64,000 nt of DNA, taken from the NCBI GenBank assembly GCA_026393755.1, contig JAPKZO010000037.1:1-64000 (forward strand), read 5' to 3'. Position 1 is the first letter of the stretch; the number at the start of each line of letters is the position of its first letter. This stretch comes from Acidobacteriota bacterium. Lineage in GTDB: Bacteria > Acidobacteriota > Vicinamibacteria > Vicinamibacterales > JAKQTR01. The notes under the pieces were generated by a model that did not search any database, was not told the origin of the DNA, and saw only the letters and a program-made list of their open reading frames with translations. Made by a program: the position numbers and the translations under genes. Below, in pieces: positions 24,836 to 30,420 of this stretch.

Positions 24836-26137
24836 ATGGGCCATCTGGTCGGCAAGGACGTCTATCGGGCGCTTGGCAGGAAGATCGACGGCCTGACGCT
24901 CAGGGCTCCCTGGAACGACACCTTCCACGCACTCCTGAAGGAACTGTACTCGGCCGAGGAAGCAGACCTCGTCGTCCGCATGCCGTACCGCCCCGCCACC
25001 ATTGAGCACCTCGAACGCACGACCGGCTACCCGCGCGCCACGCTGGAGCGTCTGCTGGAAGGCCTGTGCATGAAGGGGCTGATCATTGACGCGCACCTGG
25101 GGGGCCAGTACCGGTACATCGTGTCGCCGCTGGCTGTCGGGATCTTCGAGTTCACGATGATGCGGAGCGGGGAAGGGGTCGACCACAAGGCCTGCGCCAG
25201 GCTGTTCCACGACTACATCTCGAACGGCGGAGTATGGGCGGCCAATCTCAGCGCAGGACAGCAGTTGCAGTTGATGAGGACGGTGCCGCACGAGCAGACC
25301 GTGGCATCAGCCGATCACGTCGAGGTGCTCGATTACGAAAAGGCCGTATCCATCGTCGAGTCGCAGAAGCAGTTCGCCGTCGGCATCTGTTCGTGCCGTC
25401 ACGAGAAGTCGCATCTGGGACTCAAGCGGTGTGAGGTGCCGCTGGAGACCTGCACGTCGCTGGGAAGCGGGGCCGACTACCTGGTGCGCCGCAAGCTGGC
25501 CCGCCCGATCGACAAGAGCGAGATGCTCGACCGGCTGAGCCAGGCGCGCGACATGCGGCTGGTGATGAACGCGGACAACGTGCGGAGCCATGTCGGCTTC
25601 ATGTGCCTGTGTTGCCGGTGCTGCTGCAATATGCTGCTCGGCGTCAGCCAGTTCGGCTACCCGCACATGCTGGTGACCTCCAACTATCTGGCGACGTCGG
25701 ACGACAGCACCTGTGACGGCTGCCTGAAGTGCAAGAAGGCCTGCCCGATCAACGCGATTTCCATCGAGCGGCTGGCCAAGCCGGCGGGCAAGAAAAAGGC
25801 GCGGCCCGTGGTCGACGAATCGATCTGTCTCGGGTGCGGCGTGTGTGCGCTCGCCTGCAGCACGCAGGCGATGAAGCTCCGCGCCCGACCGCAGCGGATC
25901 CTCTACCCGGAAGCCACGTTCGAAAAGATCATTCTGCAGGCCCTGGAAGTCGGCACGCTGCAGAACCTGCTGTTTGCCGAGCCTGAACGGCTGACGCACC
26001 AGTTCCTGCGCGCCTTCGTCGGGGCCTTTCTGCGTCTGCCCCCGGTCAAGAAGGCGCTGGTTGGCAAGACGCTGCGGTCGCGGTTCCTTGGTGCGTTGGC
26101 ATCGGGGGGCAACGGGGTGGAGGCTCGCCCGTCGTAG
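24836..26137 (+). CDS. iron-sulphur protein with winged-helix-like N-terminus and Cys-rich centre
   Basis: A 433-residue cytoplasmic protein. Residues 50-100 resemble a winged helix (TIEHLERTTGYPRATLERLL, then a wing GGQYRYIVSPL). C185 and C187 (CSCRHEKSHLG) and more Cys up to 206 form a first cluster region. Residues 257-264 are strikingly Cys-rich (CLCCRCCCNM). Two ferredoxin motifs follow: CDGCLKCKKACP (293-304) and CLGCGVCALACS (331-342). Similar proteins are annotated only as 4Fe-4S dicluster proteins. A redox-sensing or electron-transfer role is inferred. It lies 68 bp after the hybrid kinase in the same direction. Confidence 0.75.
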   Translation: MGHLVGKDVYRALGRKIDGLTLRAPWNDTFHALLKELYSAEEADLVVRMPYRPATIEHLERTTGYPRATLERLLEGLCMKGLIIDAHLGGQYRYIVSPLAVGIFEFTMMRSGEGVDHKACARLFHDYISNGGVWAANLSAGQQLQLMRTVPHEQTVASADHVEVLDYEKAVSIVESQKQFAVGICSCRHEKSHLGLKRCEVPLETCTSLGSGADYLVRRKLARPIDKSEMLDRLSQARDMRLVMNADNVRSHVGFMCLCCRCCCNMLLGVSQFGYPHMLVTSNYLATSDDSTCDGCLKCKKACPINAISIERLAKPAGKKKARPVVDESICLGCGVCALACSTQAMKLRARPQRILYPEATFEKIILQALEVGTLQNLLFAEPERLTHQFLRAFVGAFLRLPPVKKALVGKTLRSRFLGALASGGNGVEARPS

Positions 26138-26180: not shown

Positions 26181-26243
26181 CCCTAGCAGCCCGTGGTGCA
26201 AGTCAGTCTGCATTCGACCGACTTCCACCACGGGCTGCTAGGG
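26181..26243. repeat. long palindrome with perfect 18-bp arms
   Basis: CCCTAGCAGCCCGTGGTG (26181-26198) is perfectly mirrored by CACCACGGGCTGCTAGGG (26226-26243). The 27-base loop contains a second inner inverted repeat AAGTC/GACTT. Part of the right arm (ACGGGCTGCTAGG) recurs at about 56091-56103. There is no T-run, so a transposable palindromic repeat (REP/MITE-like) is as likely as a terminator. The rest of 26138-26335 shows no gene. Confidence 0.7.
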
Positions 26244-26335
26244 CCTGCACCGGTGCACTCGGCGACACCCCAATCCGCCCGCTGTGTTATGCTGCGCCCC
26301 ATCCGGAACACCTGCGCACCGTGATGAGGAGTCCC

Positions 26336-27295
26336 ATGACCCTACCCCTGTTATCGCTGTTGCTGGCGATGAGCGGTCAGACCCCGCCGCCGCCCCAGCA
26401 GCCACCGCCGACCGTGGCGCCGGCCGTGGTCCAGAAGGCCCCGCCCGCGCCGCGCAAGGTATACAACGAGACCGCCGACGCGAAGGCGCAGATTTCCACC
26501 GCACTCAAAGCCGCTGCCGAGGACGACATCCGGGTACTCATCAACTGGGGATCGAACGACGATGAGTTGTGCGCGAAATTTACCGAGGCGCGGCGTGCCC
26601 CGGAAGTGTCGAAGCAATTCACGGACCACTACAAGCTGGTCTACGTCGATGTCGGCCACGTGGACAAGAACCTGGACCTTGCGAAGTCGTTCGGCGTGAC
26701 GCTGGCCGCGGGCGCGCTGCCTCATCTCACGGTGCTCGACGCGAAGGGCAGAGTGCTCGCGCAGGCGTCGGGCAAGGGATTGGTCAGCGATGCTGAACCT
26801 GTCGGATTCGACGCGAAGAAGACGGTGGCGTTTCTGACGAAGAACCAGGCACCGCCTCCGCCCGACGCGGTGGCGACGTTCGCAGCGGCGCTGGCCCAGG
26901 CCACACGCGAGACCAAAGAGGTGTTCCTCTGGTTTGCGGCCCCGTGGTGAACGTGGTGCCACAGGCTGGGCGCCTGGATGGCGTCCCCGGACGTTGCACC
27001 GCTGCTGGCAAAGGAATTTGTCAGCGTCAAGATTGACCTGGATCGCGCGCCTCGCGCCAGCGATCTTGCGAAGCGCTACCAGACAAAAGAGGAAGGGCTG
27101 CCGTGGATCGCCATCATCGACGCCGATGGCAGGGAGATCGCCAACGCCACCGGCCCTGAGGGCAATGTCGGGTTCCCGGCCAAGGCGAGCGAGTACGCAC
27201 ACTTCAAGACGATGCTCGATAAGGCGAAACGGTACCTGACCGACGCAGACATCGCTGCTCTCATCGCGTCGCTCGAGGCCGCCAACAAGAAGTAG
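26336..27295 (+). CDS. candidate selenoprotein: secreted tandem thioredoxin-like protein with in-frame TGA
   Basis: Reading through one TGA (26948-26950) gives a 319-residue protein. It has a signal peptide (MTLPLLSLLLAMSGQ), a Pro-rich linker, a degenerate thioredoxin-like domain (residues 45-160, LINWGSNDDELC) and a second domain from about 175. In the second domain the active site reads FLWFAAPW-TGA-TWCHRLGAW: the TGA sits exactly where homologous WCxWCH motifs have the first Cys. Frame and similarity continue on both sides (FVSVKIDLDRAPRASDLAKR, then GLPWIAIIDADG). A SECIS-like hairpin follows. Selenocysteine in place of the redox Cys (UxxC) is the simplest functional reading; a Cys-to-stop mutation or sequencing error is the alternative. 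ATG 26336 is preceded by AGGAG. Confidence 0.7.
26959..26981 (+). promoter_or_regulatory. SECIS-like stem-loop just after the in-frame TGA
   Basis: CAGGC (26962-26966) pairs with GCCTG (26972-26976) around the loop TGGGC; CCA (26959-26961) can extend the stem by pairing with TGG (26979-26981) across a 2-base bulge. The loop begins 16 nt after the TGA and has G in its second position. Bacterial SECIS elements are short stem-loops inside the coding region with a 16-37 nt UGA-to-loop distance and a G among the first loop bases. The match is suggestive; GC-rich DNA forms such stems by chance. Confidence 0.45.
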
Positions 27296-27348: not shown

Positions 27349-30300
27349 ATGAACGGAATGCGTAGAACTTTCGGAATCGTCGTGATGGGGCTCGTCGCCG
27401 GCGTGCTGACGCTGGGAGCGAGCGGGCAGTCGGCGGCTCCCCAGAGCCGGCCCGCCGCGGCACCGGTCCAGAAGAACGATGACGACTACACAAAGCGGAT
27501 TCTGGACAACACCCCGGACAAGCGGATCCTGACCGAACTGGTCGATCACATGCCCGTGTCGGCCAATGTGCCGTCCCCGCTGAAGTTCCTCGGCTACGTG
27601 CCCGGCGAGAACAGCCGCCTGACGTATCACAAGGACATCGTCGCGTACTACCAGGCCCTGGTGAAGAGCACCGGGCGGGCAACGATGTGGGAGATTGGCA
27701 AGACCGACGAGGGACGCCCGATGGTTGCGCTGGCGATCGCCGATGAGGCGACCATCAAGGCGCTCGGCAAGTACAAGCAGATCACCGCGCAGTTGTCCGA
27801 CCCGCGCAAGCTGTCCGAAGCTCAGGCGAAACTGCTCATCCAGACCGGCAAGCCGATCTACTACACGACGGGCAGCCTCCATTCGGGTGAAACCGGCAGC
27901 CCGGAGATGCTGACCGAACTGGCGTTCCGGCTGGTGGTGGAAGAAACGCCGTTCATCAAGCAGATTCGCAACAACATGATCGTCGTCATCACGCCGGTGG
28001 CCGAGGTCGATGGCCACGAGCGGCAGGTTGACAACCGGCGGGCGTCGGACGCGGGCCAGCCGCAGCCGGGAATGACGTACTGGGGCCGGTACGTCGCACA
28101 CGATAACAACCGGGACGGCATCGGCAAAGGGCTCGTCCTCACCCAGAACATCCTCAAGGCGTTTCTCGATCTGCATCCGCAGGTCATGCACGATCTGCAC
28201 GAATCGGTGACGCTGCTTTACACCTCGACCGGCACCGGCCCGTACTATCCGGAGGTGGCCCCGATCCAGGTCAGCGAATGGTGGTGGCTCGCCGAGACCG
28301 AGATCATGGAGATGACCAAGCGCGGCGTGCCGGGCGTGTGGACGTACAACTACTACGACGGCTGGGTACCCAATTACATGTTCTGGATTGGCGTCACCCA
28401 CAACTCGATTGGCCGGTTCTACGAAACGCAAAGCTACGGCGGCGGCGGGCGGGGAGGCGCGCCGGCTGCGGCCCTCGGCCAGACGATGGCGGGCGCGGCG
28501 CCGGCGGGTGGACGGGCGGCTGGTGCGGCCGTTTCGGCAGTTCAGGCACCAGGTACTCCGGCTGCGGCCGGCGGACGGGCTGTCGGCGGCGGCCAGAGCC
28601 GCGAATGGTACCGCCCGTTCCCTGTGCCGCCAGAGGGCGTGCAGTGGAGCGGCCGGGCCAACATCAACATGCAGGAGTCGGCCATTCTGATCGCGATGAA
28701 CGCGGTGGCGAAGAACCGCGAGATGTTCCTCGAGAACTACTACCTCAAGAACAAAATGATGGTGGAGCAGGGCCGGACGCGCGCGCCTCATGCGTACGTG
28801 ATTCCCGCGCAGCAGCGCCGGCGCATTGACGCGGCGGACTTCATGAACTTCCTGCGCCGCGAAGCGGTCGAGATCCACACGGCCACCGCGCCGTTTGCTA
28901 TCGGCAAGGTCCAGGTCGCCGCCGGCGACTACATCATCAGGCTCGATCAGCCGTACGGAGGGCTGGTCAACACACTGCTTGGCGTGCAGTGGTATCCGGA
29001 GGCGAATCCCCGGCCGTACGACGACACCGGCTGGTCGCTGCCGCTGCTGCGCAACGTGCAGATGTTCAAGGTGGACGACAAAGCCATCTTTGACAAGCCG
29101 ATGACGCTCGCGACGTCAGACTTCAAGGCGGCGGGCACGATCACGGGCACCGGCGGCACCATCGTCATCGACCACACGACAGACAGCGCACTGGCGACCT
29201 TCAGATTCGCCAATCCGAAGATCAGGATGGCGGCCGCCGAACAGCCGTTCGATCTGGCCGGCCATCACTTCGCCGCGGGAGCCTTCATCGTGGCCGGTTC
29301 CAATCGGGCGGTGCTCGAACCGCAGATTCGTGACTACGGCCTGCTGGCGTGGGCCACCGACCGACCGCCCAGCGTGCCGACGCACGACCTCGATGTGCCG
29401 CGCATCGGGTACGTCCATTCGTGGTCCAGCACGCAGGACGAAGGCTGGGTGCGGATGGTATTCGACAAGCTCAAGGTGCCCTACACGTACTTCGGCGACA
29501 ACCAGCTGCGGCAGGGCAATCTGCGTGCGAAGTACGACGTGATCGTCTATCCCAACGGCCCGGTAACCGTGGATGGCGGAGAGATTCCCGCCGGCGGGAC
29601 ACCGCTGCCGTACAAGAAGACCGATCTCACGCCGAACATCGGCACCGCGCCCGATCAGACCGACGACCGGCGCGGCAGCCTCGGACGCGACGGGCTGAAG
29701 GCGCTGGAAGCCTTCGTGCAGGAAGGCGGCGTGCTGATTGCCGAAGGCACCGCGGCGACGGTGTTTCCGGAATATCGTCTCGTTCCCGGCGTGACGATTG
29801 AACAACCCTCCGGTCTCTATGCGCCCGGCTCCGTGCTCAAGGCGCTCATCGGCGACAGGACCAGCCCTATCCTCTACGGTTACGACCAGAACGCAATCGG
29901 CGTCATGTACAAGGGCGGGCCGGTGCTTGCGCTCGGCGGTGGCGGCGGGCGGGGTGATGGCGGCGGTCGCGGCGGGACGTTGCCGGCCGGCGTGGGTGGC
30001 GGCAATCTGCAGCCGATGGCGGCGCCGCCGAGGTTGACGACGCTCGACGCGCCGCCTTCCGCGGCAGCGGCCATGGCCGAGGGTCGCGGCGGCCGTGGTG
30101 GCGGCCGCGGTGGTGGCGGTGGACGCGGCGGGTTCGGCGGGGCCGCAGCGGTCGCACTTCCGCGAGTGCTGCTGTCGTTTCCAGCCGATCCGAACGACCT
30201 GCTGCTCTCAGGCGAGTTGGTCGGCGGCGACAACCTCACGGGGCACCCGGCGCTCGTCGATGCGCCGCTTGGCAAGGGGCACCTCGTGCTGTTCGGCGTG

Positions 30301-30420
30301 CGGCCGTTCTGGCGCTACGAGACGCACGGCAGCTTCTTCTTCGCCCTGAATGCGATGCTCAACTGGAACGACCTCGACGCCGGGCGGAAGGCCGCTGGCG
30401 CGCCAACAGGGGATCGCTGA
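27349..30420 (+). CDS. secreted M14-family zinc carboxypeptidase
   Basis: A 1023-residue protein with a signal peptide (TFGIVVMGLVAGVLTLGASG). The M14 catalytic domain spans about residues 75-400: the zinc motif HSGETGSPE gives H178 and E181, and the third ligand probably lies in MHDLHESVTLLY. The tail (from 430) is a large extra domain of beta-rich sequence interrupted by Gly/Arg-rich linkers (GGGGRGDGGGRGG and a longer run near 900). Such large, Gly-rich M14 proteins are common in Acidobacteriota and would degrade peptides outside the cytoplasm. It follows the thioredoxin-like gene by 53 bp in the same direction. Confidence 0.85.
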   Translation: MNGMRRTFGIVVMGLVAGVLTLGASGQSAAPQSRPAAAPVQKNDDDYTKRILDNTPDKRILTELVDHMPVSANVPSPLKFLGYVPGENSRLTYHKDIVAYYQALVKSTGRATMWEIGKTDEGRPMVALAIADEATIKALGKYKQITAQLSDPRKLSEAQAKLLIQTGKPIYYTTGSLHSGETGSPEMLTELAFRLVVEETPFIKQIRNNMIVVITPVAEVDGHERQVDNRRASDAGQPQPGMTYWGRYVAHDNNRDGIGKGLVLTQNILKAFLDLHPQVMHDLHESVTLLYTSTGTGPYYPEVAPIQVSEWWWLAETEIMEMTKRGVPGVWTYNYYDGWVPNYMFWIGVTHNSIGRFYETQSYGGGGRGGAPAAALGQTMAGAAPAGGRAAGAAVSAVQAPGTPAAAGGRAVGGGQSREWYRPFPVPPEGVQWSGRANINMQESAILIAMNAVAKNREMFLENYYLKNKMMVEQGRTRAPHAYVIPAQQRRRIDAADFMNFLRREAVEIHTATAPFAIGKVQVAAGDYIIRLDQPYGGLVNTLLGVQWYPEANPRPYDDTGWSLPLLRNVQMFKVDDKAIFDKPMTLATSDFKAAGTITGTGGTIVIDHTTDSALATFRFANPKIRMAAAEQPFDLAGHHFAAGAFIVAGSNRAVLEPQIRDYGLLAWATDRPPSVPTHDLDVPRIGYVHSWSSTQDEGWVRMVFDKLKVPYTYFGDNQLRQGNLRAKYDVIVYPNGPVTVDGGEIPAGGTPLPYKKTDLTPNIGTAPDQTDDRRGSLGRDGLKALEAFVQEGGVLIAEGTAATVFPEYRLVPGVTIEQPSGLYAPGSVLKALIGDRTSPILYGYDQNAIGVMYKGGPVLALGGGGGRGDGGGRGGTLPAGVGGGNLQPMAAPPRLTTLDAPPSAAAAMAEGRGGRGGGRGGGGGRGGFGGAAAVALPRVLLSFPADPNDLLLSGELVGGDNLTGHPALVDAPLGKGHLVLFGVRPFWRYETHGSFFFALNAMLNWNDLDAGRKAAGAPTGDR

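Follow-up and report, generated by a model that had tools for sequence, protein, structure and literature searches.

A probable tandem thioredoxin-like selenoprotein gene, with an in-frame UGA and a conserved hairpin, in an Acidobacteriota genome

Introduction

Selenoproteins of the UxxC thioredoxin-like type, with a thioredoxin fold and selenocysteine (Sec) where a CxxC motif has its first Cys, are a standard and well-known kind (PMC13188914). Table 1 of that 2026 inventory, which covers 119 families, has among its entries the "Thiol:disulfide interchange protein" (PF13098, UxxC) and thioredoxin (PF00085, UxxC). The constraints given there for a bacterial SECIS (bSECIS) hairpin are a loop of 3-9 nt, an upper stem of 4-16 bp, a G in the first two loop positions, a UGA-to-loop distance of 16-37 nt, and an MFE of -7.5 or lower (PMC13188914). 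The other described relatives that matter here are Cys enzymes such as the disulfide reductase DsbH (NF043050) and the C-terminal domain of DsbD, which come as a single domain or as part of a membrane protein; TsoB (NF045694), a rhodanese/DsbD fusion-like protein; and a disulphide isomerase of Xylella with a solved structure (3fk8).

Here we analyze a gene in a 64,000-nt stretch of an Acidobacteriota genome (the window), which almost certainly continues past an in-frame TGA by inserting Sec in a thioredoxin-like active site. Its protein shares the fold and the position of Sec with the UxxC selenoproteins above, and both Pfam families of those entries, PF13098 and PF00085, match its second domain. 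Unlike them, it is a tandem protein whose first domain has no CxxC and whose best Pfam match is Thioredoxin_7; this comparison with the inventory was made by description.

The gene and its UGA codon

The gene was originally predicted as one frame unbroken from 26336 to 27295 save for the TGA at 26948-26950, and the coordinates and the flanking residues are correct. The frame has 319 codons from the ATG at 26336 to the TAG at 27293-27295, and its sole internal stop is codon 205, in the context WFAAPW-U-TWCHRLGAW, where U is the first position of WUxWC. The features discussed below are:

26325..26330, + strand: GAGGAG, likely the Shine-Dalgarno sequence for the ATG at 26336, five bases ahead of it (sequence reading)
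26336..27295, + strand: selenoprotein gene, 319 amino acids plus stop, with the TGA almost certainly read as Sec; the frame is kept across the TGA in five further genomes
26336..26455, + strand: hydrophobic N-terminus (MTLPLLSLLLAMSGQ) and Pro-rich linker, a probable export signal (from sequence only)
26456..26850, + strand: N-terminal thioredoxin-like domain, CxxC lost (it reads NDDELC at the site of NWCGWC in Cys relatives); closest solved structure 3fk8
26867..27292, + strand: C-terminal thioredoxin-like domain with UxxC; Pfam Thioredoxin_7 (PF13899), E 7e-21
26948..26950, + strand: UGA codon for Sec 205 (WUTWC); TGA in the same column in six genomes, Cys in relatives L034 and L036
26953..26983, + strand: 31-nt conserved block GTGGTGCCACAGGCTGGGCGCCTGGATGGCG, with one synonymous change among six species
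26958..26982, + strand: putative bacterial SECIS hairpin; the consensus fold fits the bSECIS constraints of PMC13188914

The upstream neighbour (window 24836-26137) encodes a 4Fe-4S dicluster-domain protein, and the downstream neighbour (27349-30420) a large M14-type zinc carboxypeptidase-like protein. Both adjoin the selenoprotein gene only within the genus (L056). Around the genes in L057-L061 we find no common neighbours besides the gene itself, except that L058 and L060 share one weak match. We thus dropped the gene neighbourhood as a clue to function, the Fe-S/M14 adjacency being limited to the same genus. The spacer between the selenoprotein gene and its Fe-S neighbour holds a long palindrome, CTAGCAGCCCGTGGTG ... 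CACCACGGGCTGCTAG (26183-26241). Its arm has 12 copies genome-wide at no more than one mismatch, 8 of them exact, compared with 1 for a reversed control; it is a repeated extragenic palindrome.

Conservation of the TGA and relatives with Cys

Within the family, class and phylum we found five further full-length genes with the TGA, having 79% (L023), 59% (L024), 62% (L029), 59% (L030) and 57% (L035) protein identity to the window gene. In all six genes the TGA falls at one alignment column and there is no second stop. The carriers span at least four families and include one member outside the class, and chance does not account for six genomes sharing a TGA at the homologous codon. The gene is rare, with these six known carriers among several hundred genomes searched in the class and phylum.

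Two full-length relatives have Cys at the TGA column, one from a planctomycete (L034, 42% identity) and one from the same phylum (L036, 40%); a scan of genome contigs gave L034 as a single relative. In these proteins the column is the first Cys of a CxxC, which bears out the original claim that the TGA replaces the first Cys of a thioredoxin-like site. The further claim, that the TGA stands for Sec, is supported by these relatives, by the TGA kept in six genomes and by the Sec machinery described below.

A tree of the second domains places the six TGA genes in one supported group (95/96). The gene from outside the class, L035, groups in that tree with L030, which is based on few sequences and would fit horizontal transfer. 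A further protein, L055 (G487, 1498-1974), is a single-domain thioredoxin-like protein whose CxxC has an in-frame TGA for its first Cys (SWUGWC), followed by a strong hairpin unlike that of the window gene. L055, whose TGA is in the same place, falls outside the six-gene group, and this placement suggests a second, independent use of Sec; it is probably a second selenoprotein family.

The hairpin and the frozen block after the TGA

The putative SECIS has an apical stem of 5 bp (26962-26966 with 26972-26976) closing the loop UGGGC (26967-26971), and it extends by 4 more pairs (26958-26961 with 26979-26982) past a 2-nt bulge at 26977-26978. The 5-bp stem and the G-containing loop are as first described, and the 16 nt reported then is the distance from the TGA to the loop, whereas the stem begins after 11 nt. 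The hairpin fits the bSECIS model (a 5-nt loop, a 5-bp upper stem, 16 nt of spacing, and a consensus fold of -13.5 kcal/mol), but of 1000 TGAs drawn from the window, 107 (~11%) are followed by a comparable hairpin. Moreover, the sequence is GC-rich, and the energy of the hairpin is average with respect to shuffles of the same sequence (z 0.06). Thus the proposed fit to a SECIS stands, and taken alone it is a weak point. After these shuffles and background counts we dropped the energy as evidence. The evidence that the hairpin provides is its conservation, not its energy.

That conservation is at the level of the nucleotide sequence. The block at 26953-26983 is identical in five species and has one silent change in the sixth, a CAC to CAT in L035, which turns a C-G pair into U-G. 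Considering residues that are invariant and have a choice of synonymous codons, 6 of the 7 in the block (11 codons) use one codon in all six species, versus 12 of 81 elsewhere (Fisher P 2e-4). The Arg in the block is AGG in 6/6 species, a codon that makes up 8% of Arg codons in seven neighbouring window genes. The synonymous freeze of the block is beyond chance; the hairpin alone is not. Among the six TGA genes we see no compensatory double change in the hairpin, because the hairpin hardly varies.

Selenocysteine machinery of the genome

The original prediction called for a search of the same genome for selA, selB, selC and selD, and selA, selB, the tRNA-Sec gene and selD are all present. We find selA at C2 (E 7e-158 with one curated model and 6e-132 with another), selB at C24 (336.7 bits including neighbouring pieces, against a cut-off of 242.25), and a tRNA-Sec gene at C39 (59.4 bits, against the Rfam cut-off of 47), which ARAGORN calls tRNA-SeC with anticodon TCA. 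The selD gene (L018, at C28) itself carries one in-frame TGA, located at the known Sec position of that protein (SCSG-U-AGK). Two small hairpins follow that TGA. This second gene with the same decoding signature in the same genome acts as an internal positive control.

Across genomes, the presence of selA does not discriminate carriers of the Sec form from carriers of the Cys form, as selA is also present in G326, which carries the Cys form, and in most of the others tested. One TGA carrier, G001, yielded no tRNA-Sec; its assembly is a draft of 250 contigs, ~90% complete.

Protein architecture and comparison with described families

The product is probably exported, judging from the hydrophobic start and the Pro-rich linker. 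In the homologues, too, the start is hydrophobic and a Pro/Gln-rich stretch comes next, and this region (26336..26455) has low confidence in the structure model. The model, which has a mean pLDDT of 83.6 and was built with Cys for Sec, has two thioredoxin-like units. Thus the assignment to a thioredoxin-like family holds, with two domains in tandem and not one as first proposed. The two are distantly alike (25% over 99 residues). In the model, a strand at 195-201 leads to a helix at 206-215 that begins with the residue next to 205, the arrangement one expects of an active-site motif.

The second domain scores 74.6 bits with Thioredoxin_7, against a curated cut-off of 27, and 8/8 members match; weaker Pfam matches are to Thioredox_DsbH, Thioredoxin_2 and Thioredoxin. 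It is similar in sequence to DsbH, with 34 bits against the cut-off of 190 of that model, and the folded model of the window protein matches the C-terminal domain of DsbD. The C-terminal DsbD-like stretch of TsoB matches residues 184-270 (E 7e-10), but the window protein lacks the rhodanese and the DsbD membrane part, and it reaches 37.6 bits against a cut-off of 805. For the first domain, the closest solved relative is 3fk8 (sequence E 4e-19; VIA-align Z 16.4, rmsd 2.5 with 121 residues aligned), from which it differs in that its CxxC is lost in the TGA forms. The structure comparison mainly covered this first domain, and absences in it mean little.

The motif is UxxC and not the CxxU of the Trx7/PDZ selenoprotein (NF041199), Pfam gives no PDZ match, and NF041199 is matched weakly and by only one member of set A5. 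For the VPGUxxT thioredoxin-like selenoprotein (NF041383) the score is 19.2 bits against 275, and the motif is APWUxWC, not VPGU. Against the NCBIfam models, the window protein stays below every cut-off. Compared by description, no entry of the 2026 inventory corresponds to this tandem arrangement; one of its broader entries, for instance "Thiol:disulfide interchange protein", could still include the protein (PMC13188914). The tandem family is not described in the literature on selenoproteins of Acidobacteria/Acidobacteriota within our search, beyond which lay most subscription papers.

The two domains differ in how they have kept their redox sites. The Cys relatives have a CxxC in both domains (NWCGWC and PWCxWC). 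In 6/6 TGA genes the CxxC of the first domain is gone, replaced for instance by NDDELC or NDDAGS. Over this small set of sequences, the genes with Sec at the second site are thus those that have lost the first CxxC.

Alternative readings of the TGA

In a genome where TGA also ends ordinary genes (57% of the stops of seven neighbouring ORFs), one alternative is that this TGA is a true stop, leaving a pseudogene or a 204-residue N-terminal protein, with the downstream frame either dead or a separate gene; a 105-codon ORF does begin at the ATG at 26978. Such a stop, falling just before the helix, would leave out the second Cys and the greater part of the C-terminal thioredoxin domain, and it would have to be held at one codon in six genomes and followed by a block frozen at silent sites. 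Selection on the tail also argues against it. After the TGA, relatives have 58-89% protein identity to the window gene with dN/dS of 0.14-0.39, and before it 58-71% with dN/dS of 0.17-0.33. Constraint downstream of the TGA is about that upstream and purifying selection runs to the end of the gene, so the tail is not dead. We consider a true stop very unlikely.

TGA and TGC are one base apart, and the TGA could in principle be a sequencing or assembly error over a real TGC or TGT. TGA also stands at this codon in five further assemblies whose sequences have diverged, and this repetition in independent genomes excludes a read error in a single assembly; we give an error almost no weight. The frame alone does not tell which residue is inserted, and UGA could be read as another amino acid, such as Trp, under a different code or by a suppressor tRNA. 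Yet TGA ends other genes in the window, the column holds Cys and not Trp in the relatives, and the Sec machinery is complete, down to a tRNA-Sec with anticodon TCA, which makes this reading highly improbable.

A model for the selenoprotein

None of the main conditions named at first as refuting the prediction held. What the computation establishes is the presence of the machinery genes, the conservation of the TGA and of the frame, the freeze of the hairpin sequence, the existence of relatives with Cys, and the two-domain layout. The explanation that we consider very probable as a whole is a selenoprotein with Sec205 inserted by SelB under guidance of the hairpin, and acting as a probably exported tandem-thioredoxin UxxC oxidoreductase. 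SelA, SelD and tRNA-Sec would supply Sec-tRNA, and SelB would carry it to the UGA at 26948-26950, guided by the hairpin at 26958-26982. The ribosome would then put in Sec at 205 and go on to the TAG at 27293.

We take the protein to be, most likely, a UxxC oxidoreductase that is exported. In the second domain, Sec205 and Cys208 would form a thiol-disulfide oxidoreductase site with the selenol as the attacking group, and the site may exchange electrons with disulfides or related substrates. Partners, substrates, the direction of the reaction, export and the insertion of Sec itself are inferred. The first domain, having lost its redox cysteines, is likely to have a binding or scaffold role and probably binds a partner.

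We also lean, with less assurance, towards a distinct and uncatalogued subfamily in which the gain of Sec in domain 2 goes with the loss of CxxC in domain 1, such that an ancestor with two sites would have become a selenoenzyme with one site and a redox-dead partner domain.

Concluding remarks

The mechanism itself is textbook selenoprotein biology. The tandem subfamily seems to be an uncatalogued protein family, even though the use of Sec is well known. Automatic annotation would either stop this gene at its TGA or call two genes, and the catalytic site would be lost. The six TGA genes and the two Cys relatives form a small, clean set for studying the replacement of Cys by Sec. The accompanying loss of the first-domain site suggests a testable idea on why that replacement occurs.
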